The translations under genes were made by a program, and so were the position numbers. 64,000 nucleotides of DNA from Leadbettera azotonutricia ZAS-9 (GTDB taxonomy: Bacteria > Spirochaetota > Spirochaetia > Treponematales > Breznakiellaceae): positions 2,064,453-2,128,452 of the forward strand of contig NC_015577.1 of NCBI RefSeq assembly GCF_000214355.1, read 5' to 3'. Under the pieces are notes generated by a model. The model was not told the origin of the DNA, ran no database searches, and saw only the letters and a list, made by a program, of their open reading frames with translations. The stretch's first letter is position 1. Each line of letters opens with the position of its first letter. Below are positions 15,692 to 48,356 of this stretch, one piece after another.

Positions 15692-16618
15692 CTAGTCAAT
15701 AAAATCTATAGGTAAAACCATTCTATCCCTTGAAAGTACCGTATCAGGAAATATGGCTTCCGCCTCTTTTAATACCTGCTTGAGATCATACTCGGTGTAA
15801 CGGGGGCTATAGTGAATCAGCGCCAGCTTCTTTACCTTGGCATCCAGGGCAATCCGGGCAGCCTGTTCTGCGGTCATGTGCTTCTTTTCCCTGGCGCTTT
15901 CGAGAAGAGCCTGCTCAAACATGCCTTCGCAGACAAAAAGATCCGAGCCTGCCACTTCCGCCGATATTTCCGGGAAGGCGAGAGTGTCGGTAACAAAGGA
16001 AAATTTGCGGCCCGAACGGAAAGCGCCAAGTACCTGTTCGGGCCTTACTTCCGAGCCGTCTTCAGCCCACACAGCCTCTCCCGACTGGAGTTTTGACCAG
16101 AGGGGACCCATTTTAACCCCAAGGGCCATAGCCTTATCGGGATGGAATTCACCGGGCCTGATATCTTCTTCGAGGGTATAGCCGTAGCAAGGCTTGGTAT
16201 GGCGAAGGGGGAAGGCCCTCACTTTATAGCCCTCGCCCTCGTAAACTACGCCAGGGGCGGTAATCTCTTTTACGATGATTTCATAGTTGATGTACATATC
16301 CAAAACCCGTCTGCTTGTTTCGATATACTCAGCAATGCGCGGAGGCCCGATTATATAAAGGGGATCGTCCCTGTCAACCTGGGACGAAAGCATAAGCAGA
16401 CCCGGAATACCCGTAACATGATCAGCGTGGGTATGGCTTATAAAGATAACGGAAATCTTCTTCCACCTGAGGTTGAGCTTGCGCAGGGACACCTGGGTCC
16501 CTTCGCCCCCGTCAAACAGAAAAAGCTCCCCTTCCCGCCTTAAAAGCACAGACGTAAGATGCCGGTTGGGCAGAGGCATCATGCCCCCACAGCCAAGTAT
16601 AAAGGCTTCAAGATTCAT
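15692..16618 (-). CDS. rnz: ribonuclease Z
   Basis: A 308-residue metallo-beta-lactamase-fold nuclease that trims tRNA 3' ends. I chose the ATG at 16618 (MNLEAFILGCGG), since RNase Z proteins begin with this strand; the open frame extends 29 codons further without homology. The zinc motif SHTHADHVTG gives His62, His64, Asp66 and His67; LRHTKPCYGY and FVTDT carry the later ligands, and LALIHYSPRYT the last one. Since neither tRNA gene in the window encodes CCA, tRNA maturation here needs 3' processing and CCA addition. It lies 13 bases ahead of the ABC ATPase. Confidence 0.93.
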   Translation of the reverse strand: MNLEAFILGCGGMMPLPNRHLTSVLLRREGELFLFDGGEGTQVSLRKLNLRWKKISVIFISHTHADHVTGIPGLLMLSSQVDRDDPLYIIGPPRIAEYIETSRRVLDMYINYEIIVKEITAPGVVYEGEGYKVRAFPLRHTKPCYGYTLEEDIRPGEFHPDKAMALGVKMGPLWSKLQSGEAVWAEDGSEVRPEQVLGAFRSGRKFSFVTDTLAFPEISAEVAGSDLFVCEGMFEQALLESAREKKHMTAEQAARIALDAKVKKLALIHYSPRYTEYDLKQVLKEAEAIFPDTVLSRDRMVLPIDFID

Positions 16619-16743
16619 GGATGGCAGTATACCGAAAAGACGACAATTTTTCCAGCCCCAAAAAAGAACCGTCACCCCCGGAACATCCCGCGAACCGGCA
16701 AGCATTCGATTAAAAAATATCCAATTACTAATTCCAAATACTG

Positions 16744-19224
16744 CTAATCGAAAATGTTAAACCCCAAAGATTTATATCCGTTAACCCGCTTATTATACAT
16801 TCGCAGTAAAACCGGGACTTTCTCGTCCACATAATCGTATATCCTGGTTTCTGTTTTTCCATAATAGGTACGGTTGAGCCGTCCTGCATATTGTATTAAA
16901 GTACCTTTCCAGGAGAAGGGAAAAACAAGAAAGAGCGTATCAAGACAAGGCAAATCGAAACCCTCGCCAAGGTATTTTCCGGTTGCCAGTATTATTCTAT
17001 GAGCATCAGACGGCTCATTTTGAATATTCTCCATGATGGTCTTTAGCTGCTTTTTTCCGAGGCCGCCTTTCAACACAAAAAGATAATCTGTAAACCGGAG
17101 AAGGGCTTCCTCTAACAAGGCAAGGTGATCGATCCGTTCACTGAGAACAAGAATCTCCCGTCCCTCGGTAAAAGCTGCGACAATATCCTGTATGATTTGC
17201 CTGTTCCTGTTTTCATCCATCCATAAATGCCTGAAAATATCCTGAATTTCGAGAGGCTTATCCTCTGTTGCCGGTAGTTGAAATTCGGTATAATGAGGTA
17301 TAACTTTTTGAATGAATTGAGTATTACTTTGCCGCACTGAATATCGAATGTCACCCAAATTCATGATGACTATGGGTTGCTGCCCATCCTTGCGGGTTAC
17401 GGTTGCCGAAAGACCCAGGCGGTAATAGGCAGGACATTTCCTGATGATGCTTTCAAAGGAGGATGCTGAAATATGATGGCATTCGTCAACAATTATCTGA
17501 CCATAATCCTTTACCCAATCTGCGACATTTCCTTTTTTGCTGATGCTTTGCATGACTGCAATATCAATGATCCCGGTCCGTTTCTTTTTAGCCCCGCTAA
17601 AGCAACCGATTTCAGTCTTTGGAATATTCAAAAATTGCTGTATCCTTTCCACCCATTGATCCAGCAATTGTTTACGGTGGACAAGGATTAAGGTGTTGAC
17701 TTTTCGATGGACAATCAGCCACAACGCAATAACTGTTTTTCCGAAAGCCGTGGACGCAGAAAGTATCCCTGTGGGGTTAATTGCCATCGCATCTGCCGCA
17801 GCTTTTTGTTCAGCATACAATTCCCCCTGAAAACTGACATTGATCGGCGTTCCGTGGTTTTGCTTATCCTGGAACTGCGGCGTAATATGATAAAAATCAA
17901 AAATCTTTGTCAGCTCACTAAGGCAACCGATGGGGAGTCCGATATATTCCGGGAAAAACTCGTAACAATAAAGAATTCGCGGCTTGTTCCAGGTAGGAAG
18001 ACGCATTGCCTGCGCCCGGTAGAATTCGGGATTTGAAAAGGATGCCAGACGCAGGATACGGTTGCGGAGTATCGGCGGAAGACCGGTATGATTTATATAA
18101 ATTTGATCCGAAATAATTACATCAATTACGGAGGGCAAGGGATCCATAATAGCGGGCAGCGTGTAAGGAAACTGCAGGCTTCCGGGTTTCCTTTGCCAAG
18201 GTTTATCTTCACTGTCAATTTCAAGGGGATTGAACGATACCGGAAGCAATTCGTTACGTTCCAGAGCAGTTTGTATGATCGCGTCAATCGTTTCTTCATC
18301 AATTCGTTTTATTGAAGCAAGGTATTGCCATTGGTCAAGATAAGGAACCATATCAGGATCAAGAAAAACACTGTGATTTTTTACCCGCGCTGCTTTTTGC
18401 AGGGGCAAGGCGATAAGGTTGCCAAATCCGCCTTTGGGCAGGGTGTCCTGATTAGGGAAAAACCGGTCAAAGGAGTCGAGCCCTATTTCGGGCCGCCGGT
18501 CGAGGGTCCGGGTCATTAAAAGGGAACCAAGTTTCCTGGCCTTGGACGCCGGTATCGGGTGGTCAAAGAAAATCCAGATGTGAGCACCATTTCCGGATCG
18601 GGAACGCTCAACACTGGCGGGAATCCCTTCTGTCTGACATGTTTCAAAAAAAGCCTTCACGTCTTCCTGCCATGATTGTTTGTCGAAATCGACAGCCAAT
18701 AAATGACAGGTTTCATTTTGCAGCAAAGGATATATCCCCATTACGAAAGGACTTGGTTTACCCCAGTCGGTACGGGATGGAATAAACCCTGCGAGGTGGT
18801 TTCTAATAACCTCATCGGTTACAGGTTCAAAAGATCGATGAGGGCAGACACCGCAGGCCACTTGGGCTTTCTCGCATACTTCCCTAACCCATTCATTTTT
18901 ACAGACCGGTTGATAGCCCGATTTTCCCGTCTTTTTGCTTTCAAACCGTTTGGCGTATATATCTTCTCTTCCCCTGAAGAGTGAACGGAACAGGGTGATT
19001 TTATCTTCGGGAGCGGAATGGTTATTGATGCCGGGGCTGCTGGCATCCTCAGTCGGGTTTTGGAGTATCAAACTCTCGACCGGCGATTCAACTTTTACTG
19101 GTTCGGTTGCGATTGCATGAGGCTCCGTCTTAAGCTGGACGAGTTCAGCTTTCTTCTGTAAAAGCAAACTTTCAAGATCAGCAATTTCAGCTACAAGCGT
19201 TTCGATAGATGCTGCTTCGTCCAT
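16744..19224 (-). CDS. archaeo-eukaryotic primase domain fused to SF2 helicase (TOTE conflict-system type)
   Basis: An 826-residue protein. Residues 1-35 are a coiled coil. The primase domain (about 80-300) shows AVDFDK with Asp179 and Asp181 as candidate metal ligands, RSGNGAHIWIFF with His215, and a Cys-rich CEKAQVACGVCPH just before it that may bind zinc. Residues about 465-826 are a superfamily 2 helicase with Walker A (STAFGKTVIA, Lys496), DECHH at 580-584, LGLSATVTRKDG and QYAGRLNRTY. This pairing matches the primase-helicase of TOTE conflict systems, thought to act in defence. The gene stands alone between rnz and the integrated elements, so it may be cargo of a decayed element. Confidence 0.85.
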   Translation of the reverse strand: MDEAASIETLVAEIADLESLLLQKKAELVQLKTEPHAIATEPVKVESPVESLILQNPTEDASSPGINNHSAPEDKITLFRSLFRGREDIYAKRFESKKTGKSGYQPVCKNEWVREVCEKAQVACGVCPHRSFEPVTDEVIRNHLAGFIPSRTDWGKPSPFVMGIYPLLQNETCHLLAVDFDKQSWQEDVKAFFETCQTEGIPASVERSRSGNGAHIWIFFDHPIPASKARKLGSLLMTRTLDRRPEIGLDSFDRFFPNQDTLPKGGFGNLIALPLQKAARVKNHSVFLDPDMVPYLDQWQYLASIKRIDEETIDAIIQTALERNELLPVSFNPLEIDSEDKPWQRKPGSLQFPYTLPAIMDPLPSVIDVIISDQIYINHTGLPPILRNRILRLASFSNPEFYRAQAMRLPTWNKPRILYCYEFFPEYIGLPIGCLSELTKIFDFYHITPQFQDKQNHGTPINVSFQGELYAEQKAAADAMAINPTGILSASTAFGKTVIALWLIVHRKVNTLILVHRKQLLDQWVERIQQFLNIPKTEIGCFSGAKKKRTGIIDIAVMQSISKKGNVADWVKDYGQIIVDECHHISASSFESIIRKCPAYYRLGLSATVTRKDGQQPIVIMNLGDIRYSVRQSNTQFIQKVIPHYTEFQLPATEDKPLEIQDIFRHLWMDENRNRQIIQDIVAAFTEGREILVLSERIDHLALLEEALLRFTDYLFVLKGGLGKKQLKTIMENIQNEPSDAHRIILATGKYLGEGFDLPCLDTLFLVFPFSWKGTLIQYAGRLNRTYYGKTETRIYDYVDEKVPVLLRMYNKRVNGYKSLGFNIFD

Positions 19225-19485
19225 GTTATTTTTTCACTAATTTATGGCAGGGCCTGAGTGTGCGGGGTATTCCCGAACGGCAACGCCTAGCCCGGTGGTT
19301 GGATTGAACTCTTTCATATCCTGCAAAATCCACCCGGAGTCGGTGGGTTTTAGTCCGTTCTGTCCATTGTTTTGCCGAATGACGGTAGATTTTGCCATTC
19401 AAACCCTTTTTATGGTAACTATTGTACCATAAATCCAGTTTTTATGCTAGAAATGTCAGGTGAAATCTGTGGAGGTTTTAGTATT

Positions 19486-19728
19486 ATGAAAACTATTGAA
19501 GAATATATGAATGATCCTGATATTCAAACTATGCCCGAATATTTGCGGGAAATCCATGCGGCCCGCCATCTGATTCAGGATGAGACTGTCGGAATGTCAG
19601 CCGAAGAGGAAGCGAAATACCATCGGAAAAAGACAGATGAACTCTTTGCAAGGTTGGGACTTCCCCAACCCCAATATGTTGATTTTTCCGGTCAAGGCCG
19701 TCTGGATCTCACGAGACTGCCCTATTAG
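19486..19728 (+). CDS. orphan antitoxin-like protein (second copy of the PIN partner)
   Basis: An 80-residue protein starting at the ATG at 19486 behind a good GGAGG site. It is nearly identical to the protein at 43517, which overlaps a PIN-domain toxin gene. Here no PIN gene precedes it: the shared DNA begins near the ribosome site and continues past the stop to about 19785. The helical, acidic, DNA-binding-like character (MKTIEEYMNDPDI, VGMSAEEEAKYHRKKTDELF) fits an antitoxin, but I know no named family. It probably survives from the ruined third element. Confidence 0.6.
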   Translation: MKTIEEYMNDPDIQTMPEYLREIHAARHLIQDETVGMSAEEEAKYHRKKTDELFARLGLPQPQYVDFSGQGRLDLTRLPY

Positions 19729-19811
19729 CCGGAAAGTCAGCATAGTAGGACAGAACTTCAAGAGCAAAACTTACCGGATTTATCCGGGCAATCTTGTTTG
19801 ATTCGTAACGA

Positions 19812-19875
19812 GGGTACATACCCAAGAATTCGCTCCCGCGAGGGAGCCTTGGGGCGTTATAAATGGTATGTACCC
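19812..19875. repeat. nested inverted repeat (three stacked stems)
   Basis: Outer arms GGGTACATACC (19812-19822) and GGTATGTACCC (19865-19875) are perfect. Inside them CCCAAG (19821-19826) pairs with CTTGGG (19848-19853), and GCTCCC (19832-19837) pairs with GGGAGC (19842-19847) around a GCGA loop. It lies between the orphan antitoxin and the integrase remnant, in what looks like a deletion scar. Confidence 0.8.
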
Positions 19876-19918
19876 GAGTCTAATACCTTTAAAGAACAAC
19901 CATACCCCGACCGCTCTG

Positions 19919-20105
19919 CGGGGTTGGCTGATTTTGGGTTTTCGGGCAGCCCATCATCAAGCCATTTTTAGGCTATGGTTTCGGCTTTTCTCTCATCGCT
20001 GGTTCCCGTTGAGCGAGTAGCGACCTGTTTTCTTGTAACAGTGTCCATGAGGATGAATTGAAAATTGTCTCCGGAGTTTCTTTACCTTAGATAATAATGA
20101 CGCAT
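19919..20105 (-). pseudogene. integrase remnant (N-terminal part, two in-frame stops)
   Basis: Reading the minus strand from the ATG at 20105 gives MRHYYLR, stop, RNSGDNFQFILMDT, then TSDERKAETIA, stop, KWLDDGLPENPKS. This matches the start of the intact integrase at 54938 (MRRYYLRRRKPGGNWSAIFMDT, TPDEKKADAIAQEWLANGLP) residue for residue in alignment, with TAA in place of an Arg and a Gln codon. Homology fades near 19915, so about 60 codons remain. The DNA upstream of this ATG (20106-20230) also resembles that upstream of the intact integrase, up to the att repeat. This shows that a third element of the element 2 type once stood here. Confidence 0.88.
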
Positions 20106-20230
20106 TTTCTTTCCCTTTTGGCACGAATTTGGTAATTCAGTCCAATAGTATGAATGAAAACACGCCTTTTGCGGTGGTAGCGTTTTCTTAATTTGAGTTA
20201 ATTCCTTGTAACACAACAAATTAGCTTCTT

Positions 20231-20282
20231 TTTGGGGAGTGGAGGATTTGAACCTTCGAAGGCTGAGCCAACAGATTTACAG
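20231..20282. repeat. attachment-site repeat (tRNA-Tyr 3' half), left copy
   Basis: This 52-bp stretch is identical to 55050-55101 inside and next to the intact tRNA-Tyr gene, and differs at one base from 42688-42739. It covers the tRNA from the anticodon loop to the 3' end. Sequence diverges immediately after ACAG, in the anticodon stem, which is a known crossover region for tyrosine integrases at tRNA genes. Confidence 0.93.
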
Positions 20283-20415
20283 AACCCCGATAATGCCCCA
20301 TGCAAGCCTATACAGTCTTATTGTGTATCATTTTAGCCCATTTTGATTGATTATTCAAGCTATTTGACGTATTTTGGCGTATTCCGGCCTAGACTGCATT
20401 ACCTTGACATAGACG

Positions 20416-20449
20416 TTTTTGTGTCGATCTCTGTGTCGTTTTTGGAATC
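20416..20449. promoter_or_regulatory. paired GTGTCG repeats, candidate integrase arm site (element 1, left end)
   Basis: GTGTCG at 20421 and 20433, 12 bases apart, each preceded or followed by runs of T. Nearly the same block occurs at 42583-42612 by the integrase at the other end of element 1 and nowhere else that I noticed. Confidence 0.6.
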
Positions 20450-20479
20450 CTTGACAGAGCATACAAAAAGTAATACATC

Positions 20480-20635
20480 ATGAATAAGGTAATTGAAAAG
20501 ACCCTTTTTGTGGTATATGCCGAAAAAGGGAATGGCAAACAATTAATCACGGCCCGCCTGGCTACAAAGGCGGAAAGGAGATCATACAATGGCTATTATA
20601 GAATCGACGGTGAAGGTTGGACAAAAGCCACCTAA
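20480..20635 (+). pseudogene. brnT: BrnT toxin, C-terminal fragment
   Basis: An open frame of 51 codons encodes the C-terminal half of a BrnT ribonuclease toxin (EKTLFVVYAEKGN, then LITARLATKAERRSYNGYY, which matches the family's ISARxATxxER end). BrnT proteins are about 90 residues, and the N-terminal half with its first catalytic residues is missing; a stop lies just upstream of the ATG in this frame. It overlaps the intact brnA by 47 bases. The toxin is probably inactive. Confidence 0.75.
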
Positions 20636-20912
20636 AGAAGCATTAAAGCGGATCCGTAAAGAAATTAAGGAAGCCGCAAAATTCCCTATAAACCTTGAGG
20701 ATGCGCCGGAACTTTCCCCGGAGGCTCTTAAGGAATTTGCCCACCTGGCGGCAGAGCGGAACCGGCAGAAAAAGCGACAAGTAGTAACCCTGCGCCTTGT
20801 CCCTGATTGCCTTTCAAAATATAAGTCTCTGGGTAAAGGGTATACCAGCATAATGGCCGATGTGCTGAACTATGCCGCGAATAATCCGGAAATACTTTCA
20901 AAGTTTCGGTAA
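20589..20912 (+). CDS. brnA: BrnA-type antitoxin
   Basis: A 107-residue protein with the BrnA layout: a helical N-terminal arm (VKVGQKPPKEALKRIRKEIKE), DAPELSPEALKEFAHLA, then the DNA-binding ribbon-helix-helix part QVVTLRLVPDCLSKYKSLGKGYTSIM and a final ADVLNYAANNPE helix. BrnA binds BrnT and represses the shared promoter. Here BrnT is truncated, so the antitoxin is effectively orphaned. The start at 20589 follows GAAAGGAG. Confidence 0.85.
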   Translation: MAIIESTVKVGQKPPKEALKRIRKEIKEAAKFPINLEDAPELSPEALKEFAHLAAERNRQKKRQVVTLRLVPDCLSKYKSLGKGYTSIMADVLNYAANNPEILSKFR

Positions 20913-23641: not shown

Positions 23642-25000
23642 TCAATTTAAAGTTACCCACTGTCCTGTCTTGTCAGAACCCTCCCGTTTGATAATGTTTT
23701 TTTCGGTCAATATTTTTATATTGCGTAAAATCGTTCGCCGGCTCACTGCTATTTCGGCTACCATCTTATCGATTGTGATTCCCTTATTTGCGTTTATCAG
23801 CAAGAGGATTGATTTTTGGGTTTCGCTTAAATCGTTCTTTACAGTGCCATTTACAGTGCCATTTACAGTGCCATTTACAGTGCCATTTACAGTGCCATCG
23901 CCCTCATTTCGTTCAAAATCACTTGCATAGGGGAATGTCACCACGATAAAGCTCGGGGTAATTTCAAACACGGAACGGTCGTATGCTTCCAAAATGCGCC
24001 GCATACCGGAGCCTAAGCCTTCGACGAGTTCCACGTCTTTGAACACGCGCATAAGTTCACGGTTGCGGAGCATGGAACGACCGGCAAAAAAGTCCTCTTG
24101 CGACAAGCCTTCCACAAGCCCGCCGGTAGAAGTGATGGTCACTCTGTCGGAAAAGAACTCAACGACGGGCCAACCTAAATTGTAGTCGTTATGAACTACG
24201 GCGTTTATAAATGCCTCTCTCAGGGCAACCGGATTAATAAGTTTCCGCTCCAATCGGTTGCGTGGAGTGATTTTTGCGAAGGTCTTATTCTCGACTGCCA
24301 ACTTATCAAGGACACGATATATCGATGTTATCAAACATCGATAGCCGTATTCCTCATTTTCAATCAGGTCAATTTTATCAGTTCCCGCATATTTAGCAAC
24401 TTTAATTGATGCGCCGTTGCTGTCTGCCAACAGGTACGCGAGAAGATTATACGAGCTGTCGCCGGTACGCAAGTCAAGATTTTCTTCAAACTGGTCATTC
24501 AGCGTTAAACCGAGTTCGTTGTAGTAGATATGAAGCTGCTCAAATGTCAGCTTTTGCCGCGATACCGGTGTGGTGGCGAGGGAGTTTGCCTGCCTGTGCT
24601 GAAGCTGCCGCTCAATCATCGCTTCGGTCATCGGCTGGGCAGAGGCGCCTACCCGGATGAAGCAGCCATCCTCAGTCATTCCTTTCTTGCGGATATAGTA
24701 GGGTTTCTGCATTCCGCTCGATACAACTATGCGGATAATATTTTTGCCGTCCATTTCTTCGGCAACTACATCAAATAATCCCAAAATCTTTGGACGGATA
24801 TTATTACCAAGCCTATCGGTAATCTTACGCTGTTCGGCATCGGAATTGGCAACACCGACAACTGAGCCATCATCGTCAACGCCAATGAGTATTTCGCCGC
24901 CGCCATTATAATTAAGAAAGGCCACCACGGCTTTTTCGAGCTTGTCGCCTTTGTCGGCTTCGCGCTTGTATTCAAGGCGGTTGGATTCCAAGTTAGCCAT
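23642..25000 (-). CDS. AlbA-type (Schlafen-like) ATP-binding transcriptional regulator
   Basis: A 452-residue protein with the N-terminal AlbA_2/Schlafen-AAA domain (ESNRLEYKREADKGDKLEKA, AFLNYNGGGEILIGVDDDG), a GHKL-like C-terminal segment (RNRLERKLINPVALREAFIN, FFSDRVTITSTGG, GLGSGMRRILEAY), and a winged helix at the end (KMVAEIAVSRRTILRNIKILTEK). Proteins of this family are usually annotated as DNA-binding or RNA-binding regulators; some act in defence. Between the domains is a run of NGTV repeats. It is the last gene of an operon of four, sharing ATGGCTAA with the nucleotidyltransferase gene. Confidence 0.88.
   Translation of the reverse strand: MANLESNRLEYKREADKGDKLEKAVVAFLNYNGGGEILIGVDDDGSVVGVANSDAEQRKITDRLGNNIRPKILGLFDVVAEEMDGKNIIRIVVSSGMQKPYYIRKKGMTEDGCFIRVGASAQPMTEAMIERQLQHRQANSLATTPVSRQKLTFEQLHIYYNELGLTLNDQFEENLDLRTGDSSYNLLAYLLADSNGASIKVAKYAGTDKIDLIENEEYGYRCLITSIYRVLDKLAVENKTFAKITPRNRLERKLINPVALREAFINAVVHNDYNLGWPVVEFFSDRVTITSTGGLVEGLSQEDFFAGRSMLRNRELMRVFKDVELVEGLGSGMRRILEAYDRSVFEITPSFIVVTFPYASDFERNEGDGTVNGTVNGTVNGTVNGTVKNDLSETQKSILLLINANKGITIDKMVAEIAVSRRTILRNIKILTEKNIIKREGSDKTGQWVTLN
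23841..23898. repeat. 12-bp tandem repeat inside the AlbA-type gene
   Basis: ACAGTGCCATTT repeated four full times plus a partial fifth copy. Being a multiple of three, changes in copy number keep the frame and add or remove NGTV units in the linker between the ATPase-like part and the winged helix. Confidence 0.9.
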
Positions 25001-25325
25001 AAATTTTTATCCCTTTGGTCGATACTATCCTTTCGATTGTTGTAATACCAGTGGAGCGATCTAAAAACTTACTCTTTTTATGTACCAGTAAATCTATAGC
25101 ATGATTTTGTTTCTTATATATTGCAAGACCTACGGCCTCTATAGCTTCCATTTCCCGTATTGGGGTCTCATCTTTTAGGACTATATATAAATCAAGGTCG
25201 GAATCCTTATGCGGTATTCCATAGGCATAGGATCCAAAGAGATATATCTGCTCAACCGGGATTGTTTCTGCGATGATTTTGGTGAGAATATCAAGTTCAT
25301 TTCTAATGGAGTCTATGTTATTCAT
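24993..25325 (-). CDS. MNT-type nucleotidyltransferase domain protein (second of two)
   Basis: A 110-residue minimal nucleotidyltransferase from the ATG at 25325 (MNNIDSIRNELDIL). It has the GSYAYGIPHKDSDLDLYIVL motif, with Gly-Ser and the two metal-binding Asp residues intact. In HepT/MntA pairs the MNT protein modifies the HEPN toxin with AMP and so silences it. It follows the HEPN gene with an 8-base overlap (ATGAATAA) and precedes the AlbA gene with another 8-base overlap. This MNT is paralogous to the one at 25733. Confidence 0.85.
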   Translation of the reverse strand: MNNIDSIRNELDILTKIIAETIPVEQIYLFGSYAYGIPHKDSDLDLYIVLKDETPIREMEAIEAVGLAIYKKQNHAIDLLVHKKSKFLDRSTGITTIERIVSTKGIKIYG

Positions 25326-25740
25326 TTTCCTTTTCGGCCATCTCGATTTCAACAATAGATACCTTCATTAAGCAAAAATCGTATACTTGCTTTGCTTTGT
25401 CTAAAACCGATTTTGTTATTGCTTCATCAACATCCAGTTCATTCGGATAACGGGTAAGAACGCCATAGCCTGTTAAATCTGCACAGTAGGGCCTGATTAC
25501 TTCAAAAGCCTTATCCAGTTCAAGGCAGAGGGAATTTAATAAACGCAGGTCATGTTTTTTGGGAGGTTCAATATCCTTAAAAAATAAATATCCTTTCAAA
25601 GATTTTTCTGCTGATTGCTGGCAATGATAACAGGCAATTTCCAATAATTTGGGATATACATCATTAATAGCATGTTGAGCAATAATCAAATCATTGCTTG
25701 CATATTGAAACCATTCTTTTACAAGTTTAATATCAGCCAT
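25318..25740 (-). CDS. HEPN domain protein
   Basis: A 140-residue protein from the ATG at 25740 (MADIKLVKEWFQYASNDL); a longer frame upstream overlaps the MNT gene. The HEPN helical core is shown by ACYHCQQSAEKSLKGYLFF and PKKHDLRLLNSLC, and a later TRYPNELDVDEAITKS. HEPN proteins are typically RNases or RNA-binding toxins, but the Arg-x4-6-His motif is not clear here, so activity is uncertain. It sits between two MNT genes. Confidence 0.85.
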   Translation of the reverse strand: MADIKLVKEWFQYASNDLIIAQHAINDVYPKLLEIACYHCQQSAEKSLKGYLFFKDIEPPKKHDLRLLNSLCLELDKAFEVIRPYCADLTGYGVLTRYPNELDVDEAITKSVLDKAKQVYDFCLMKVSIVEIEMAEKENE

Positions 25741-26053
25741 ATAATAATATACCTTCTTTATTAATTTTTCGTTCAATCGTCGGCTGTGAGCTGCGATATT
25801 CAAACCGATTTTTGTAATTTGCAAGTACATCTATCGGCATTCGTGTGTTGAAATTCATCAAGCTTCGATTTATCATTTCCATAGCAATAATCGGTTTCTC
25901 AGGAAAATCATCTTTTAGCACTACATAAAAGTCATAATCGCTGTCGGCAGTTGGTGTACCGTAAGCATAGGAACCGAACAAATATATTCTTTCACAGTCA
26001 ACGCTGTTGAGGATTATGTCTTTTATTTTTAGAATTTCTTCATTTATTGGCAT
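25733..26053 (-). CDS. MNT-type nucleotidyltransferase domain protein (first of two)
   Basis: A 106-residue minimal nucleotidyltransferase with GSYAYGTPTADSDYDFYVVL, so the Gly-Ser and Asp-x-Asp motifs are present. It is the first gene of the MNT-HEPN-MNT-AlbA operon and overlaps the HEPN gene by 8 bases (ATGGCTGA). It is a clear paralogue of the MNT at 24993 (compare the ends GILLYG and GIKIYG). It may AMPylate the HEPN partner, by analogy with MntA. Confidence 0.85.
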   Translation of the reverse strand: MPINEEILKIKDIILNSVDCERIYLFGSYAYGTPTADSDYDFYVVLKDDFPEKPIIAMEMINRSLMNFNTRMPIDVLANYKNRFEYRSSQPTIERKINKEGILLYG

Positions 26054-26140
26054 TTATGGTTTTATTCCCCCTCCAACATATTTTATATAAAACAGTAAGA
26101 TAATCGAAACTACTGTATTCGGCGAAAATTTTATTCATTC

Positions 26141-28309
26141 CTATTGCATCATCTTATTATAATGTCCCTCATAACCACTCTCAACAAATACAAGTCTAAA
26201 TGCATCTTTAAAAGTATTATAATCAAATTCCTTGATGTCAAAGATATTTTCCCCTAACGAATGCGATTCTTTATTTATATATCGATAAAAAGCTTGGTAT
26301 TTAACATCTTGTAAACTTTGTTTCTGAAACACATTGGCCAATTCCATTTTCTCAATAAAATTAAAAAAATACTCAATGATGTTGCGCATGCAATTTGCAA
26401 TTAATGCGGGTGAATAATTTATATCTTTTATAACATCCCAGTAACTATGGTAGTCATTTTGAATCTCATGATAATGCATAGACTTTATCTCAGCACCATT
26501 ACTAGTCTTTATCAGTCTATATAAAGCCATATACTGTTTTCGATCCTCTTGTTTGGTAAAAGTCAATTCATAAAAAAAGTATAAACTATGTGTTAAGATA
26601 ATAACTTGGTCATACTGACTTTTTGGATTAGTAAAATTATTCTTTATAAGTAGACCGATGTTGAATACATAAATATGAGAAAGGGAAGATATAGGATCAT
26701 CAATGACAATAATTTTACCTGTATTCGTATCCGAGGCAGATTTCTTACCTTTGCAGAGTTCAATAAAATAAAGAAAACTTATTATCATTTTCTCACCCTC
26801 ACTGAGCGTCTTAAATGTATCACCTTTTTCATTGATTCTTGTAATCTTGTATAAAACATCTGTGTGTTTTTCAATTTTAAAGGAATCAATACCTAAATCA
26901 ATAAGTTCATCACTGATAACACGCACTGCTTCATCAATATTGACAGTTTTTTTCTGCTGTTCAGTAATATATTGTTTCTTTTTTGATAATTCGGTACTAA
27001 TGGTCGATAATTTCTCCTTTATTTTCCCCACTTTTATTTCACTTTGGCTCTTTTCATTAAGAAAATTTGAAATGGTCTGATCATATTCCCAACGCATGAT
27101 TTCCCAAAATATTATTTTAATTTTATTTAACGAAGACTCTTTATTGTCAAGTCTTGCATTGTGTTCAGTAATTTCTTTATTCACGTTTTTTATAAGATCA
27201 TTAAAATCATTTACAACAGTAGTCGAGTCGATGAAAAATATTTTTTGGCTAGGCGATTTAATTTTATCTTCAATAGCTCTTTTGTTTTGCGAAACGCATT
27301 GCAATACAGATTTATATCGGTTTTCAAAATCATCTTTTTTACCAATGATGAAAGGGTTTGATATAAATATTTCTTCCGATGGAATAGCGTTCATGCTATT
27401 AGTATAAATAGATGACAGTCGCTTTATTTCCTCAATATCAAGTGTATATGTGCCATCAAAATAATTTTTTATTTTGTTAGCTAAAATAGAATTGACTGTC
27501 GTTTCTTGACAAAAAGGACAAGGAATGGTTTTATCTCCGATTTCAGAAGGCAAATAATCCAATCCCGCTTTCACCCAATCAGAATTTCCCAACTTTGTTA
27601 TCAATTCGGAAATAGTACTATTTTCGTTACCAACAATCGATTTTTGAAATATCGAATTAGTTTCAATCTCAGTTCCATCAAAATTTATCAGTGGTAATTC
27701 GTTGTATTTTTGCGCAGCGTTCCCTTTTAGAGATTCGACATCTTCTTTTAATTTGGCAATCGTCATTATTGGCTGAGATACTGGTTTTGACACTTGTAGT
27801 ATATGGGTGAAAAGAGATTCTTTTTTGCCCTGCAATCCTGTTAGGCAATATTCTAAAACACGATCCCCACCAGTGTATTTTTGTTTTATATTCCATACTG
27901 TATTTTCCGCTTCTTGTTTTTTACGCGATATTTCCAAATTAGTTTCTTCGAGGATATTATTTTGGTTTTTCTGTTCATCATCCAAGTTATGTATTTCTTT
28001 TTCGGTTTTTAAAATAGTTTCTTCAGCAACTTTGTTTTCTTTCGACAAGGTAAAAATACCCTTTAAAGTATCACTTTCATAAAAATATTCACTGATAAAA
28101 CGCTGATTATAGACAAGAATATCCTCATTGGCTAATCCTTCAATAGCACAATATTCATAATTTGGGTCATTCCTATCATAGAGATAGTTTGAAAGAGTGC
28201 TTTTCCCTGTTCCATTTAAACCATAAATAAGATTAACCTTTTTATTAGTAATAAGAGCAGTGCTGTCTTTATAACAAGCAACATTATTCATAGTTATTTT
28301 CGTTATCAT
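26141..28309 (-). CDS. RloC/PrrC-like AAA_13 ATPase, putative anticodon nuclease
   Basis: A 722-residue protein. Walker A is YGLNGTGKSTL (about residues 29-39), the ABC signature is LSEGEKMIIS, and Walker B is KIIVIDDPISSLSH. Coiled-coil arms in the middle carry a zinc-hook-like CPFC (residues 264-267), as in RloC. Near the C-terminus Arg642 and Glu646 (RNIIE) are followed by His683 (NKESHS), matching the spacing of the Arg-x3-Glu...His triad of PrrC-family tRNA nucleases. PrrC and RloC cut tRNA anticodons when a linked restriction system is disturbed. The gene overlaps the methyltransferase by ATGA and ends the operon. Confidence 0.8.
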   Translation of the reverse strand: MITKITMNNVACYKDSTALITNKKVNLIYGLNGTGKSTLSNYLYDRNDPNYEYCAIEGLANEDILVYNQRFISEYFYESDTLKGIFTLSKENKVAEETILKTEKEIHNLDDEQKNQNNILEETNLEISRKKQEAENTVWNIKQKYTGGDRVLEYCLTGLQGKKESLFTHILQVSKPVSQPIMTIAKLKEDVESLKGNAAQKYNELPLINFDGTEIETNSIFQKSIVGNENSTISELITKLGNSDWVKAGLDYLPSEIGDKTIPCPFCQETTVNSILANKIKNYFDGTYTLDIEEIKRLSSIYTNSMNAIPSEEIFISNPFIIGKKDDFENRYKSVLQCVSQNKRAIEDKIKSPSQKIFFIDSTTVVNDFNDLIKNVNKEITEHNARLDNKESSLNKIKIIFWEIMRWEYDQTISNFLNEKSQSEIKVGKIKEKLSTISTELSKKKQYITEQQKKTVNIDEAVRVISDELIDLGIDSFKIEKHTDVLYKITRINEKGDTFKTLSEGEKMIISFLYFIELCKGKKSASDTNTGKIIVIDDPISSLSHIYVFNIGLLIKNNFTNPKSQYDQVIILTHSLYFFYELTFTKQEDRKQYMALYRLIKTSNGAEIKSMHYHEIQNDYHSYWDVIKDINYSPALIANCMRNIIEYFFNFIEKMELANVFQKQSLQDVKYQAFYRYINKESHSLGENIFDIKEFDYNTFKDAFRLVFVESGYEGHYNKMMQ

Positions 28310-31300
28310 ACCTTACCTTCCACTACCTTAACCTCTTCTTCCGTCAACCCATACAACTTATATACAATCTTATCAATCTGCGTCTCAATCTGCGTAGTAT
28401 CTGCTGTTGGATTGGCGGCTTTGGCGACAAGTATTTTGCTAACAAGCTCAATAAATTGTCTTTGTTCTGTTGGAATTCGTATCGGTAGTTGTTCAATTTC
28501 ATACCCGCCGACATGATTATTCGTGCTAGTTTTGCGAAAATACCAATCTAATAATTTGCTGTTTAATAAAGAAAGAAAAAATAAGTTATTCTCAGGGTTT
28601 TTTAATCGAACCTTATTGGCGGTATGTCCAAAGAGAAATGGTTCCCCTGTATTTGTCAGTGCAAAATGCAATCGCCACTTATCAACTGTTCCTGTAACTT
28701 CTTGGCAAACCAAGAAAGTATCGTTTTGGTTTGCTGTTACAAGTTCCGTCTTATAATTTGGTTTGATAAATTCATCAGTATCATAGTTAATATAATATTT
28801 GGAAATATTCCTACCTCTAAGTAGTTTTATTCTTGTTTTTGAATTAATAATATATGCCTTTGAAGTAGTTAAATTTATATCACCTTGGCTTATCGATTGT
28901 ATTATATCTCTAAATCGTATAGAGATATTATTTATTTTTCTTATAATATCAAATTCGCCATTTTTTACTAACGGAATATTAAACGAATCAGGATAAATAC
29001 ATCTTATTGATTCTTGGACCATTTTCTCAAATGACAAGCTTTTTAAAGTCGTTGTATCATTGTTAATTGAGATACTAAATATATATCCAGATTCAGGGAT
29101 TGATTTTGTAACCACAGATATACAAGTACCCTGCAATACAGATTGAAAAACTTGACCGAGATGTGATGGTGCAATTTTTGGAAATTCAATTATATATATT
29201 ATTTTACATTGAGTTAACAATAGTTCTCGTGTGTATTGGGAACTTAAATCACAAAGTAAACTACTCTGTGTTATCAAACATTGACAACCATTATCTTTAG
29301 AAAAATTATATGCCGCTTCAATAAAAACTTTATATAAGTTTTGTTTGCCCTTGTCTTTACCTTCGGAGAAGGGGAATGTGTCTTTAGATACACTTCCTTT
29401 AGGAATTTGCTTATACGGCGGATTCCCAATCACCACATCAAACCCATCTTTTATGCCAAACATAATTTCACTGTCAAAAAAAGGTGAAGCATAGCAAACA
29501 CTAAAAGGATTCCATGCATTAACCTTTTCTATTTCATCGGACGCCATATTGTTGTTCTTTAGCAGAGTAATCAGTTCCAGTTTTTTGGCTTCAAAGCTAT
29601 TTTTTATATTCTCTTTTTCTTTTGGCGTTTTTGCCTGTGTGAACGGCGTAAAAACAGAAGTGAGTTCCTTACATTTTGCAAACAATTCTTCATTAAATAA
29701 ATCAGCGCCTTTTAAGTTAAGCCCAATCAGAGTATTTGCCGTAACAAATTTAGTTTCCAAATTCGGTAGCACTTCAAAATCTTCAAGCTTGACAGGTATT
29801 TCATAATCAACAAGTAGAGAAATGAAAAAACGGAGTTTAGTTATTTCTATCGCAATATTTTGAATATCAATCCCATAAATGCAACTGGTAATTATGTCCA
29901 ATTTGTTTTTGTAAGTTGTTTTATGTTCCTGCAATTTTTCTATTGTTCGAACCATTAGGTTAAACATTCCCATGGGAAACGCACCAGAACCACACGCAGG
30001 ATCAAGGATTTTGAGATCAGTAATGGCAGATATTATTTTGTTTTTTTGTGGGAAATCAAGTTTATCTTCGTGTTCGTCAATAAGTTTATTAATACTATCT
30101 GTCAAATTGGGGAAACGATTTTTCAAACTTTCTTTTAGACTTTCTTTACACATATAATCTACAATTTCACGCGGAGTATAAAAACTGCCTGTATTCTTGC
30201 GGTCGTTGGCAATTTGCTTTGTTTCGGGATTATATGCGCCAATCAGATTTTCAAATACAGTCCCCAAAAGTTCAGGGTCAAGTGCGACCACAATATCATG
30301 CGGTGTATTTTCCTCAATAGTAAATGCATAATCAGTAAAAAGGTCTATGAGTTGAAATATTACACTATCGCTCAATTTTACTCGCTCTTTTGGATTATCA
30401 CTAAAGCCATCAATAATGTAATTCTGTTCTATGTTTTTTTTGTTGCTAATGATATCGAGTCCCGAAAATTTATAATCGTGGCAAGTAAATAAGCCGCCGT
30501 TTACAAAAGGAATATTTCTGGTTTTTTCAATAAATTCATCAGCCTTACCATCCTTAAAAAAATCTTTAAATCTAAATACGTCAGAAATACCATAGTCATT
30601 CTTTTGGGGGTCATAATGATTAGCATTATCTTGTTTTCTAAAACGCCGTTCATTAATTTTTTTATTCAAAACTGCAAAAAACAAATTTTGCAAAACGGCG
30701 TTATAATAAACATTTTCATGCTTTAGAAATTTTGCATTAAATTCTCTGGTAAAAAAACCACTTTCGATTAAACCTTTTTCTTTCATAAACCAAATAAACA
30801 TAAGCCGTATTATAATGCGTATCACCGCCTGTGGCTTAAGTTCATCGTCAATCTTTTTGTCAAGAATCTTGCTTGCCATAGATAAATCAATTTTAATATC
30901 GTTTAAAGCAATGTCATACCATGAAGCCAGCTTATTGTAGAATTCCTTATTAAGAACCTCAACAGAGAAACGGCTTTTTAAGTCCGAATCATCTTTAACT
31001 CGTCCCTTCTCTATCAAATACTGCTGTGGGGTCTTTACTTTTGCATCGCGCCCTAAAATAAAAGAATATCGCCGAGGATTGGAATAATCCCGTTTAACCT
31101 CGCCTTTATCATTTACCACGGGAGTAAATTCAACTAAAGAGAAACGATAGAAATCGTCATTGTTCTGGGGAACAAATAGAACCAAAGCTCTGGCGTGTGA
31201 AGTATAATGATAAACAACGCGAAAAGCATCTTTGCTCAAACCTACACGAGCATCATTTGTTGACTTATGTTTAATTTCAAATGCCGTTAATCCTAATGAG

Positions 31301-31452
31301 GCGGACTCACCTAGTTTTGTAACAGCTTGGGTATATTCAAGTTTTTCAGTAAAAGATACATCTTTTTCATCAACAGTAAAATCATCAGGTAAAAATGAAT
31401 CTTCGAGGAAAGACAGCCATGCCTTGCGATTATACTTTTCTTTAAAATCCAT
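28306..31452 (-). CDS. Eco57I-type restriction-modification methyltransferase
   Basis: A 1048-residue protein. Motif I is LDPACGSGAF (from residue 484) and the catalytic motif IV is NPPY (677-680), typical of N6-adenine methyltransferases. PTGSFYTPREIV-like GSFYTPREIVDYM precedes motif I. The C-terminal third is a target-recognition region (IEQLPIRIPTEQ). The N-terminal 200 residues contain LTAFEIKHK, a possible half of a nuclease motif, but the full motif is not evident. The gene is joined to the helicase gene by TAATG and to the ATPase by ATGA, so all three are co-translated. Confidence 0.88.
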   Translation of the reverse strand: MDFKEKYNRKAWLSFLEDSFLPDDFTVDEKDVSFTEKLEYTQAVTKLGESASLGLTAFEIKHKSTNDARVGLSKDAFRVVYHYTSHARALVLFVPQNNDDFYRFSLVEFTPVVNDKGEVKRDYSNPRRYSFILGRDAKVKTPQQYLIEKGRVKDDSDLKSRFSVEVLNKEFYNKLASWYDIALNDIKIDLSMASKILDKKIDDELKPQAVIRIIIRLMFIWFMKEKGLIESGFFTREFNAKFLKHENVYYNAVLQNLFFAVLNKKINERRFRKQDNANHYDPQKNDYGISDVFRFKDFFKDGKADEFIEKTRNIPFVNGGLFTCHDYKFSGLDIISNKKNIEQNYIIDGFSDNPKERVKLSDSVIFQLIDLFTDYAFTIEENTPHDIVVALDPELLGTVFENLIGAYNPETKQIANDRKNTGSFYTPREIVDYMCKESLKESLKNRFPNLTDSINKLIDEHEDKLDFPQKNKIISAITDLKILDPACGSGAFPMGMFNLMVRTIEKLQEHKTTYKNKLDIITSCIYGIDIQNIAIEITKLRFFISLLVDYEIPVKLEDFEVLPNLETKFVTANTLIGLNLKGADLFNEELFAKCKELTSVFTPFTQAKTPKEKENIKNSFEAKKLELITLLKNNNMASDEIEKVNAWNPFSVCYASPFFDSEIMFGIKDGFDVVIGNPPYKQIPKGSVSKDTFPFSEGKDKGKQNLYKVFIEAAYNFSKDNGCQCLITQSSLLCDLSSQYTRELLLTQCKIIYIIEFPKIAPSHLGQVFQSVLQGTCISVVTKSIPESGYIFSISINNDTTTLKSLSFEKMVQESIRCIYPDSFNIPLVKNGEFDIIRKINNISIRFRDIIQSISQGDINLTTSKAYIINSKTRIKLLRGRNISKYYINYDTDEFIKPNYKTELVTANQNDTFLVCQEVTGTVDKWRLHFALTNTGEPFLFGHTANKVRLKNPENNLFFLSLLNSKLLDWYFRKTSTNNHVGGYEIEQLPIRIPTEQRQFIELVSKILVAKAANPTADTTQIETQIDKIVYKLYGLTEEEVKVVEGKV

Positions 31453-34400
31453 TATAGTAATTCCTCGCTTAAAATAATGCTTTCCTTGCCTTCGTCAATA
31501 TCACAGGCCATTTTAATAACCCTGTCCAGAAAGTCCTGGTCTATCTCCTGTGGCAACGTATTGAATTCAGCAGGTTTTAGTTGGCGGATAAATTGCATTG
31601 AGAGGCCTGAAAGGGCGCCAATTTCTGTAACATATTGTAGGTCCTTTATGTAATCACTATTTAAAGTGCCACTTTGGGCAATGGCGTTTATTTTATCCAG
31701 AACTTCACGTTTTTGTTTATCGGTCTTTTCGGTAACAGTAGTCTTGAAAAGTCCTTGCTTTATGATCTGATAAATAGCATCAAAGCTTTCCGAGACCGGC
31801 TTTGCCTGTTCAATAATATCTGCTTCAAGTAATTTAAAGGCATCTTCTTCTGCAAGAATTTCAGAATCCAGTAAATCCCTGGACATTTTGAAAACACAAG
31901 TGTCTTTTTTCCGGCCAAACATCAAAACACCTCTGCGGCCTTTATCGGCTGTTCTCCCTACACGGGAACGATGGGGAATGGTTAAGGCGGTTTCGTGCTC
32001 TTTTGTGCCTTTGGCTTCTTCTAATAATCGCTTGTATTTTGTTTCCCAGCTTTCAACTTCGCTTGCATTAACCATTTTCCTGTATTGGTCAGCAAAGAAA
32101 GAGCGGAGCTCTATATCGCCAGTAAGGACTTTAGTATCTTCGCCGATTATGGCGTTAATCATCGCCATTTTGAGGGTCGAGATTTCCTTGGTGCGGGTTT
32201 CACTTTCGCCAATGCTTGTGGGGAAATAGTTATAGATATAAAGGCGATCAAATACTTTTTTGTTGATACGGTTAATTCGGCCTACACGCTGAATTACACG
32301 GGTGGGATTATAGGGAATATCATAATTGAATACGGTTCCTGCGCGGTGCAGGTTATAGCCTTCTGAAATAGCGTCAGTAGCGACAAGAATATCATAATCA
32401 TTATCCTGGTTTTTCTTTCCTGCGTCAAAGTTACGTTCGATAATGGCCTTGTTTGTTTTATTCGATTCTTTTGATGTATATTTAAATACGCGCAAAGCGC
32501 TTCCTTTTAGTTTTTCATAAAGATCATCTATGGTATCAGCGTAGGAACTGAAAACGATAATTTTGCGTTGTGGATCGTTTTTAATCTGGGATGATATAAT
32601 TTCAGCAAAATGGTCACGCTTTGGGTCGGCCAAGTTTATGCCTTTTCCAAACCAGCTTTGCTGAATTTGTTCCAGTATTTGAATATCACCCTTTATATCA
32701 TTTACAAAGGCATCATCAAAATAGTCTGTTTCAAGTTCAAACAAGCCCTTTGCTTCGAGTTTGCTTAATTCAACTTCAAAGGTTGAATCGGCAATTTCCT
32801 CAGCAAAAAGGTCATCGGTACTGGCATTCTCTTTATAAATCTCTTCTATGTCGGGCAAGTATCCTCTTTTAAAGATAGGCACTTTACCACGCTTTTCTAT
32901 CCAGTTTAAAATATTACGAGACGTAGAAATCATCCTGCCCAAGGATATTTCAAAGGCTTTTCTGGAGCTTTCAAACCGCTGGACAAGCATTCGCCGCATG
33001 AATTTTGAAAGGTTACTTTGGGTTCCGATAAACAGGTTATATTCAATCCCTGCTTCTTCAACTCTTTTCTGGAGCCTTTCTTCAAACTCCGGTTTTACAT
33101 AGGTTACTGCGTTATAGCGGGCGGCTTGATAGTGTGGCCGCATAGCGTCTGCTTCGATAGACAAGTCAGGTGAAATTTGCTGCAAGGTATCAAGGTATAA
33201 ATCTTTTATATCGCCCAAATCATATTCGAGAGCTTCGGGGTCGCCGGTTTCGGCAAAGCCTATTTTTTGCTTTTCGAGGTCTTCCTTATATGAGGGAATT
33301 CCCAGTAAATCGAGCCGGGAACGGCGAATTACCAGAGGGGAAATGATACGGCGGATCTGACCTGCGATTTTATCTACTTCATTTTTTAGCGTTATTTCAT
33401 CAATTGTTTTTTTACGCTGTTGCTTTCGTATATCATTGTATTGGTTAATCAGCTCATTAAAGCGGAATCCAAGGTTATCAACGGATTTTAATGTTGATTT
33501 AAGGGGTAACTGGAACAATTTAACCATCGAATAAATATCAGAGGGACGGTTATTAAATGGGGTTGCGGTTAAAAGCATTACCTTATTACCACGGCAAAGG
33601 TTGTGTAAATTATTATAATCGGAGGTAAGCTCATTACGGTATTTATGGGCTTCGTCAATGATAATGAGCCAAGGCTTGCCAAAGGTTGATTTTTCCTTGA
33701 AGTATTCGAGGGCTGCCTCGGTTTTACCGGATGAATAAACCACTGCGTGATAGTTAAAATCGGCTGCATAATCTACCCATTGGGGTACCAGATGCGGGGG
33801 AGCCACGATGATAATCCGCAAGCCTAAATTATGGGCAACGGCTGAACCGATGATACTTTTCCCCAAACCAACAACATCGCTGATTATAACGCCATTATGG
33901 GTTTCTATTGTCGCAAGGGCTAATTTAATGGCGTCTGTTTGGTACTTAAGATCATAGAAATAATCATTAATATCATGGGCGGTCTTGAAATCTTTGTCAT
34001 AGTTGACCGAAAAATACTCATCCAATACCCGGAGAAAAAAGCAGTATGGTTTATAGAGTTTTTCGTACCAGATTTTTTCGATTACCGCATTTTCAAATTC
34101 GGCCAGATTGTCTTTGTCGGCAAGGATGACGGCGCTTTCCCATAGCTCATCAAATATTTTTTTCCCTTCTTCGTAATCGGACTTATCCCGGAGAATGGCG
34201 TTTAATTCCAGGCGGCCTTTAAGTCCCTGAAACGTGAGGTTGCTTGAACCGGTGATAAGGGATCCCGGATAGGAATCGCCTTCGTTATTTTCTGGCGCGT
34301 TTTCAAACAGGTACATCTTTGCATGATTGCTTTCTTTGGTCTTGCGGATTTCCAAGGTTCCTTCTTTTATTTTGGTCAAAAAGAGGGTAAACGCTTCCTG

Positions 34401-34718
34401 GGCTTTTTCACTGTCAAAGTAGTCCGTTTCATTGAAAAGATCGGCTAGGGATTCATAAAAGGTAGCTTTAAGAGCGCCCCGAGTTTGCTTCTCTGTTGTG
34501 TGATAATCAACCTCGCGGACACGGTTTATCATGTCCTGTTCGATTTCAAGGCCAACAAGAACCCGGAGATGCTTGTCTTTAAGCCCCTGGTAAATCTCGG
34601 CAAAACCGGAAAAATAGAAATAGCCGACCAGAAATGAGGCGTTTTGAGCTTTGGGCAGTATACTCTGGATGATTTCGGAGAGGAATTTGCCGTTCTGATT
34701 GGTGATGAAGCTACCCAC
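31452..34718 (-). CDS. PLD-like nuclease fused to SNF2-family helicase
   Basis: A 1088-residue protein. The N-terminus is a phospholipase D-like domain with His132-x-Lys134 (NHAKMYLFE) and GSSNLT (157-162), a single HKD half that would need to dimerise. Then an SF2/SNF2 helicase: DVVGLGKSIIG (Walker A, Lys288), IIIDEAHKYRN (355-358), LLTATPFNN, and DILVATDAISEGYNLH and QRVGRINRINKK in the second RecA lobe. Such PLD-helicases translocate and cut in several defence systems, including Mokosh-like ones. It is the first gene of the three-gene operon, and an IS element lies 45 bases upstream of its start. Confidence 0.88.
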   Translation of the reverse strand: MGSFITNQNGKFLSEIIQSILPKAQNASFLVGYFYFSGFAEIYQGLKDKHLRVLVGLEIEQDMINRVREVDYHTTEKQTRGALKATFYESLADLFNETDYFDSEKAQEAFTLFLTKIKEGTLEIRKTKESNHAKMYLFENAPENNEGDSYPGSLITGSSNLTFQGLKGRLELNAILRDKSDYEEGKKIFDELWESAVILADKDNLAEFENAVIEKIWYEKLYKPYCFFLRVLDEYFSVNYDKDFKTAHDINDYFYDLKYQTDAIKLALATIETHNGVIISDVVGLGKSIIGSAVAHNLGLRIIIVAPPHLVPQWVDYAADFNYHAVVYSSGKTEAALEYFKEKSTFGKPWLIIIDEAHKYRNELTSDYNNLHNLCRGNKVMLLTATPFNNRPSDIYSMVKLFQLPLKSTLKSVDNLGFRFNELINQYNDIRKQQRKKTIDEITLKNEVDKIAGQIRRIISPLVIRRSRLDLLGIPSYKEDLEKQKIGFAETGDPEALEYDLGDIKDLYLDTLQQISPDLSIEADAMRPHYQAARYNAVTYVKPEFEERLQKRVEEAGIEYNLFIGTQSNLSKFMRRMLVQRFESSRKAFEISLGRMISTSRNILNWIEKRGKVPIFKRGYLPDIEEIYKENASTDDLFAEEIADSTFEVELSKLEAKGLFELETDYFDDAFVNDIKGDIQILEQIQQSWFGKGINLADPKRDHFAEIISSQIKNDPQRKIIVFSSYADTIDDLYEKLKGSALRVFKYTSKESNKTNKAIIERNFDAGKKNQDNDYDILVATDAISEGYNLHRAGTVFNYDIPYNPTRVIQRVGRINRINKKVFDRLYIYNYFPTSIGESETRTKEISTLKMAMINAIIGEDTKVLTGDIELRSFFADQYRKMVNASEVESWETKYKRLLEEAKGTKEHETALTIPHRSRVGRTADKGRRGVLMFGRKKDTCVFKMSRDLLDSEILAEEDAFKLLEADIIEQAKPVSESFDAIYQIIKQGLFKTTVTEKTDKQKREVLDKINAIAQSGTLNSDYIKDLQYVTEIGALSGLSMQFIRQLKPAEFNTLPQEIDQDFLDRVIKMACDIDEGKESIILSEELL

Positions 34719-42572: not shown

Positions 42573-42582
42573 TGAGAACGGC

Positions 42583-42612
42583 TTTTTGTGTCGTTCTATG
42601 TGTCGTTTTTTT
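42583..42612. promoter_or_regulatory. paired GTGTCG repeats, candidate integrase arm site (element 1, right end)
   Basis: GTGTCG at 42588 and 42600, 12 bases apart in the same orientation as at 20421 and 20433, again with flanking T-runs. It lies immediately upstream of the integrase start, which may let the integrase repress itself. Confidence 0.6.
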
Positions 42613-42687
42613 CCGTATAGGATAATGAACGCCCTCTGTAAGGGTAGTTCAATTTGTAATTCCTTGCAACGCAAGGAATTAACTCAC

Positions 42688-42739
42688 TTTGGGGAGTGGA
42701 GGATTCGAACCTTCGAAGGCTGAGCCAACAGATTTACAG
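42688..42739. repeat. attachment-site repeat (tRNA-Tyr 3' half), middle copy
   Basis: Matches the copies at 20231 and 55050 except for C in place of T in GATTCGAAC, which alters the T-loop. The block just left of it, ATTCCTTGCAACGCAAGGAAT, is a near-perfect inverted repeat. It marks the junction of elements 1 and 2. Confidence 0.93.
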
Positions 42740-42885
42740 GCTCGACCAGACTACCTCATAATGCTATATAGAGCCTTATTATGTCCTCTCAGGCTTATTT
42801 TACCCTCAAAAATAAAAGGATTTCAAGTGTTTTATGGGACTTTATGGTACTTTCTCTGGTCCTATGGAGCTATATGATGTCAAAA

Positions 42886-42905
42886 TTTTGGCATGGTTTT
42901 GGCAT
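42886..42905. promoter_or_regulatory. paired TTTTGGCAT repeats, candidate arm site (element 2, left end)
   Basis: TTTTGGCAT at 42886 and again at 42897, 11 bases apart. The opposite end has TTTTGGCACC at 54949 and 54960 with the same spacing and orientation. Confidence 0.6.
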
Positions 42906-43034
42906 AGCTTTTCAGATTTTTACCCTCGTGAATAACCTAATTTATTATTTTGTAATATCAATGAAAATACATAATCAAAATTTCAGCCGTTTTCAATTTC
43001 TGTCTTTTTTGATAAAATTATATTTGGAGAAGTA

Positions 43035-43777: not shown

Positions 43778-43888
43778 TAGTACAAAGCCTCATGATCAAA
43801 GCCTGCCGGATTTATCCGAGCGGGCCACAGGGGTTTGGGGGTGTATGCCCCCATTCGGCGGTAAGGTTTTAGGCGTACCGCAAAAAAG

Positions 43889-44101: not shown

Positions 44102-44179
44102 ATCATTTTCCTATCTTGAAGATTATATATATTTTATCAGTTTTTTCAAATAATTTCTATAAAAATACAAATATTTCTC

Positions 44180-44215: not shown

Positions 44216-44240
44216 TATAGCTGATATTAAGGAGTATAAT

Positions 44241-45467: not shown

Positions 45468-45503
45468 GCTGGTACAATCAAGGCATAGCAGAGTTCATCC
45501 GTC

Positions 45504-48352: not shown

Positions 48353-48356
48353 AAAT

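Follow-up and report, generated by a model that had tools for sequence, protein, structure and literature searches.

The 64,000-nucleotide stretch of the Leadbettera azotonutricia ZAS-9 genome analyzed here (the window; positions 2,064,453 to 2,128,452 of contig NC_015577.1) contains the stump of an integrase gene that is very probably the decayed integrase end of a third integrative element, C, which would have entered the tRNA-Tyr gene before its neighbors A and B. A third integrative element is required because the stump lies outside A, stands beside a third tRNA 3' half and is not a recent copy of B. All sequence that can be assigned to C spans about 0.8 kb (19462-20282, minus strand), delimited by homology to B at both ends and by the outer boundary of A, the latter known from comparison with a relative (G018).

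BLASTN of 19001-20700 against 53401-55400 returned a single strong match, in which 19942-20282 aligned with 54775-55101 at 234 of 341 identical positions (69%, E 4e-46). With the shared tRNA-derived 50 bp removed beforehand, so that only DNA left of 20233 was scored, the local score was 80, whereas 1000 dinucleotide-preserving shuffles of the fossil sequence gave a mean of 11.3 (SD 1.6) and a maximum of 20. The real score thus beats all 1000 shuffles in the very test that the first-pass annotation had named. Scored separately, the leader upstream of the ATG reached 33 and the coding part of the stump 46, against shuffle maxima of 20 and 23, respectively. Both parts of the earlier reading are borne out by these comparisons, namely an N-terminal remnant matching the integrase at 54938 and upstream DNA that is homologous up to the att copy. 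When the element B integrase was searched against the whole genome in six frames, the stump likewise came up as a single match (E 2.2e-23, 50% identity) that includes two TAA codons.

By alignment, translation and shuffle test, the stump (19935-20105, minus strand) comprises codons 1 to about 55, where its homology to integrase ends, and its start codon is the complement of the ATG at 20103-20105. These codons form one frame with two TAA (codons 8 and 46) and no frameshift, contrary to the earlier statement that no single reading frame would show the relationship. The limits first proposed, 19919-20105, were right at the start codon; at the other end the homology extends only to about 19942, since 19798-19933 is a dispersed repeat. 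The catalytic Phage_integrase domain (PF00589) is absent from fossil C. It is found (E 9.6e-16) in the intact integrase of element B (53757-54938, minus strand), whose start we re-assigned to the ATG at 54938, preceded by a GGAG-like ribosome site, and which has a conserved R, HxxR, H, Y region.

The target of all three insertions is a tRNA-Tyr gene (55051-55134, minus strand), no other tRNA-Tyr locus having been found in the genome. Three copies of its 3' half exist in the whole genome, at 20233-20282, 42690-42739 and 55052-55101, the last of these inside the gene, and each copy adjoins an integrase 5' end on its left, which is intact for A and B and reduced to the stump at 20233. The att copy of C (20233-20282, minus strand) lies in direct orientation with the tRNA-Tyr gene and is identical to it at 50 of 50 positions. 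Because the identity among the 3' halves ends at TTTACAG, the anticodon loop, this motif is presumed to be the crossover point. Between the integrase start and the tRNA 3' half of C runs the leader (20106-20232, minus strand; shuffle test and alignment), which shares a motif with related elements in the alignment and includes an imperfect inverted repeat (20198-20223) that is degraded relative to those of the other elements. AT-rich inverted repeats of this kind sit just outside the tRNA 3' end at all three copies (the other two at 42656-42681 and 55018-55044); they are common to elements with quite different integrases, a similar one is present at tRNA-Met in relatives, and an integrase site and a tRNA terminator are candidate roles. 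On the host side of the tRNA, 55363-57428 holds two adjacent ORFs that are diverged tandem duplicates (64% DNA identity).

Element A (20283-42739; integrase at 41259-42674) was delimited by domain searches, att copies and comparison with G018, and carries defense-type cargo with restriction, helicase, AAA and Schlafen-type genes. A dense defense-type block occupies 23642-34718 (Schlafen/AlbA, HEPN, AAA_13, a type IIG-like enzyme and a PLD-helicase). Element B (42740-55101; domain searches and att copies) encodes a Mob_Pre relaxase and the integrase as well as ParA-like and AAA_25 ATPases. In its relaxase region, 48406-49603 and 49591-50788 form a 1.2-kb tandem duplication with 99.9% identity, which could be very recent or an assembly matter. 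The outer edge of A follows from G018, in which the element at tRNA-Tyr has an integrase closely related to that of A (window 41307-42742, 85% DNA identity). The inner left end of that element matches window 20231-20442 (79%) from the att copy inward, and the sole G018 match to the left of the att copy is a short tRNA-adjacent stretch from 20199, which in G018 lies on the integrase side and not on the outer flank. Because G018 matches the end of A but not the DNA beyond it, A begins at 20283, which leaves the stump beyond its edge.

Comparable stumps are also present at tRNA-Tyr in relatives. The first 80 integrase residues, searched against 195 genomes of the family, gave 24 matches in 22 genomes, of which the ten best (E 2.6e-7 or better) were judged by translation and the 14 weaker ones left out. 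Seven of these ten are decayed (C, G037, G126, G185, G058, G059 and G167) and three are intact (B, G163 and G032), G163 and G032 being located at tRNA-Met. Frameshifts break the integrases of G058, G059 and G167, the first two of which resemble B mainly at the N-terminus; in G185 the frame of an integrase at tRNA-Tyr is broken, and in G126 the integrase beside tRNA-Tyr (L079 1296-1532) has TAG at codon 8 followed by more than 300 open codons and has lost its C-terminus. The nearest parallel to C is the complete 4.06-Mb genome G037, in which an integrase N-terminus also lies beside a displaced tRNA-Tyr 3' half on the outer side of an array, with 36 of 50 residues identical to B. Unlike C, the G037 stump breaks off at codon 49-50 and is joined there to another gene, which by eye reads as a Schlafen/AlbA-type protein; the stump has no internal stops before the cut and shows neither antitoxin nor repeat at the junction. 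Because of this cut and the fusion to a different gene, G037 represents an independent loss. An intact version of the remaining parts of C together was not found in the searches of relatives. A scan of genome contigs gave four loci. Three of them are in treponeme-type records, Breznakiella homolactica RmG30 among them, and the fourth is a weak match labeled Lachnospiraceae. The stump was also considered as a phage relic and this idea was dropped, a viral scan with the integrase alignment having given a single remote match (25% identity).

The relatives also bear on the codons that became stops. At codon 8, C has TAA, G126 TAG, G037 and G163 CAG, G032 AAG and B CGG (Arg); at codon 46, C has TAA, G163 has CAT and the other four sequences (B, G126, G037 and G032) have CAG. 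Because two relatives have CAG at codon 8 and another has TAG, the first stop of C probably replaced a Gln rather than an Arg codon. Of the earlier description, TAA at an Arg and a Gln codon, the two stops are confirmed, the Gln at codon 46 agrees with four of the five sequences compared, and the Arg at codon 8 is to be replaced, probably by Gln. The stump has 27 of 50 residues in common with B. Over these 50 codons, the differences at first, second and third positions number 16, 12 and 30 between C and B (58/150), 18, 12 and 28 between C and G037, and 9, 9 and 20 between B and G037 (38/150); measured against G037, the extra changes on the branch of C relative to B are 9, 3 and 8. The third-position excess between C and B indicates that the stump was once selected as protein, most of its divergence apparently predating the loss of that role. 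The spread of the extra changes on the branch of C, which is not weighted toward third positions, is as would be expected of decay after loss of function, the numbers being small.

An alternative view is that the DNA itself was kept as a working sequence, either as the integrase arm-binding att region for joint excision of A and B or to supply a spare tRNA half with its 3' end and terminator. We regard this as unlikely. The 50-bp tRNA half without a single difference from the functional one, the leader motifs conserved across elements and the stump of similar length at the same position in G037 are what it would lead one to expect, but the inverted repeat of C is degraded relative to the others, and the extra substitutions of C are not concentrated at third positions, a point that bears on the protein only. 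In addition, the arms at 20233 and at 55052 would both be of the integrase side, and two such arms are not the usual excision pair; nor does an outermost piece need selection in order to survive. A more specific version, to which we give little credence, holds that the leader together with about the first 50 codons acts as a functional att arm and that stumps are retained beside displaced tRNA-Tyr halves for this reason. If it were true, the fossil would be a reserve att site plus tRNA 3' half, and the 34.8-kb A+B block could leave together, with tRNA-Tyr restored by the half of C.

The left part of the sequence assigned to C contains a gene tail and an ORF. The last codons of a toxin-like gene (SVEVLVL-stop; 19466-19489, plus strand), recognized by translation, are homologous to the PAEVLVL-stop tail of the ORF at 43035-43520; the rest of the gene is missing. 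Behind it lies an orphaned antitoxin-like ORF of 80 aa (19486-19728, plus strand) with 90% DNA identity to a copy at 43517, near the left end of B, whose putative antitoxin role is deduced from its place behind the toxin-like gene. This antitoxin-like gene is still intact after deletion of the toxin gene, and the 118-aa ORF that contains it matches no Pfam family. No other transfer-type ORF is present in 19462-20282, the integration and transfer genes of C having been lost save the integrase stump. Toxin tail and antitoxin piece together (19463-19789) match element B at 90%. It counts against the reading of C as one element that the antitoxin piece is 90% and the stump 69% identical to B, so that C would be a mosaic or the antitoxin would have come separately.

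We count the antitoxin piece common to C and B as speaking for element C. It would also be expected if the stump were a duplicated, decayed copy of the right end of B itself, formed by recombination within the array, since the best within-genome matches of the leader and of the antitoxin piece are both in element B. A copy of B should, however, be closer to B than B is to G037, and the stump, with 58 as against 38 differences in 150 positions, is further away; we consider this origin highly improbable. The residues in common and the divergence of its own described above mean that C is not a recent copy of B. That the stump is a recoded or read-through integrase fragment in which TAA is decoded as an amino acid has next to no probability and was rejected: the independent stop at codon 8 in G126, with its long open frame behind, would suit it, but the integrase body is missing in C and the C-terminus in G126, so that read-through could not make either of them active.

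What separates the antitoxin piece of C from its integrase piece is precisely a structured dispersed repeat of 136 bp (19798-19933). The repeat is roughly 140 bp long with hairpins, a typical copy starting TTGATTCG and ending GGTTGATT, and shorter and internally deleted versions exist. A search of the own genome returned 13 matches: one is the query, one the antitoxin copy in B and one the leader of B, and the other ten are matches of the repeat, two of them pieces of one copy; among 58 sampled family genomes, the repeat was matched in 24, own included (23 of 57 others). No Rfam family matched, and no transposase was recognized by eye among the ORFs flanking nine copies; a guess that the repeat is a known RNA of the HEARO/omega-RNA type came to nothing. 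Because the repeat fills the gap between antitoxin and integrase pieces, the deletion of the integrase body ended at the repeat, which suggests that it may have run through the repeat or between repeat copies.

The left end of C is where the fossil gives out, and the findings there count against the element reading. The whole-genome search, at a threshold that could miss a degraded copy, found only the three att copies and none to the left; the best other att-like site in the window matches at 27 of 50 positions, and the own-genome (G000) loci covering 2003000-2066000 contain no att-like site of at least 30/50. The MBL-fold gene at 15692-16705 belongs to the core, being present in 42 of 42 good genomes and in 162 of all 195. 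This core gene adjoins the fossil block here; in the three other single-contig genomes compared, its distance from tRNA-Tyr is 136-286 kb. Its 5' neighbor is not generally conserved, being shared by only three among 15 loci. In 10 of 32 downstream stretches from relatives, tRNA-Tyr is followed by two conserved genes, and the ZAS-9 orthologue of these empty-site neighbors maps to genome coordinates 2003.9-2004.9 kb, which puts it 80 kb to the left of the fossil. In the eight genomes queried, own included, the second conserved gene is far from tRNA-Tyr or on another contig, and the stretch above it, read in six of the seven other genomes, contains no tRNA-Tyr. In other relatives the tRNA or its fragment is followed by ruvAB-like genes or by a third gene, with ZAS-9 orthologues at 2003-2022 kb (at 2006-2022 kb for the neighbors in G025 and G046), and overall the orthologues of genes beside an empty tRNA-Tyr are 60-80 kb further left. 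Judged by gene order, the left flank of the fossil is rearranged relative to relatives, and the left boundary is a rearrangement because the empty-site neighbors and the core gene lie displaced. An attempt to place the left edge of C through the ancestral tRNA-Tyr neighbor did not fix it, these neighbors being displaced or unlinked. The first-pass annotation had called the stump proof of a third, decayed element: the existence of the element stands, and its extent does not, with the left att copy not found, about 0.8 kb secure and the left flank rearranged.

Between the core gene and the fossil lies a TOTE-type primase-helicase gene (16744-19224, minus strand), which is sporadic in the family (20 of 195 genomes) and foreign, and not securely part of C. 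As cargo of C it was set aside, the homology among TOTE loci ending at about the start of the gene itself, with no junction in common with C. In G031 (L160 2997-3268), a TOTE gene 93% identical to that of the window is situated beside an integrase C-terminal scrap and tRNA-Leu. Because of this location and the sporadic distribution, TOTE genes are probably mobile, and their surroundings suggest that they may travel on tRNA islands. A literature search on TOTE systems found no paper naming TOTE.

The arrangement can be accounted for by successive insertion. Each element would bring its own tRNA 3' half next to its integrase, and crossover in the anticodon loop would restore the tRNA and displace the older 3' half outward. 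Successive insertions into the tRNA would push C to the outside, and on this reading C would be the oldest element and B the youngest, with A in between. C would then have lost the toxin gene, the integrase body and its left end by deletion, the integrase stump gaining two stop codons; the outer end may have been deleted or carried off with the rearrangement. The array is explained in this way without a new mechanism. It presents layered island accretion at one tRNA gene among termite-gut spirochaete relatives, with tRNA halves and integrase ends readable like strata, and the oldest layer would escape gene callers and island finders that rely on an intact integrase plus both fragments.

Searches of the literature on tandem or decayed tRNA islands and on the organism did not turn up this array, which is not proof that it is undescribed; a paper found for the organism treats integrons rather than this locus. 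Its parts are familiar. In the Islander report (PMC4383910), tandem tRNA islands consist, as here, of a tRNA gene with displaced 3' fragments as element ends, a tyrosine integrase per member and crossover of the anticodon-loop class; a table there has four tandems of three or more compared with 125 of two or more. Unlike those tandems, the outermost member C has only an integrase stump and its outer fragment was not found, so that it is uncallable by that method as there described. A review (PMC5704250) describes integrative and mobilizable elements as often in tandem with other, generally decayed elements, by a route of integration, decay and new integration at the att site. C resembles the CIME in accretion with IMEs or ICEs outlined there, in which a resident decays and another element enters its att site, producing a tandem with a decayed member. 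A CIME, as defined there, keeps both att sites; because the outer copy was not found and one site is present, C is not a strict CIME. An array built by tandem accretion of integrative elements, its outermost member decayed, is nevertheless a well-known kind of arrangement, of which the tRNA-Tyr array is an unusually clear case.
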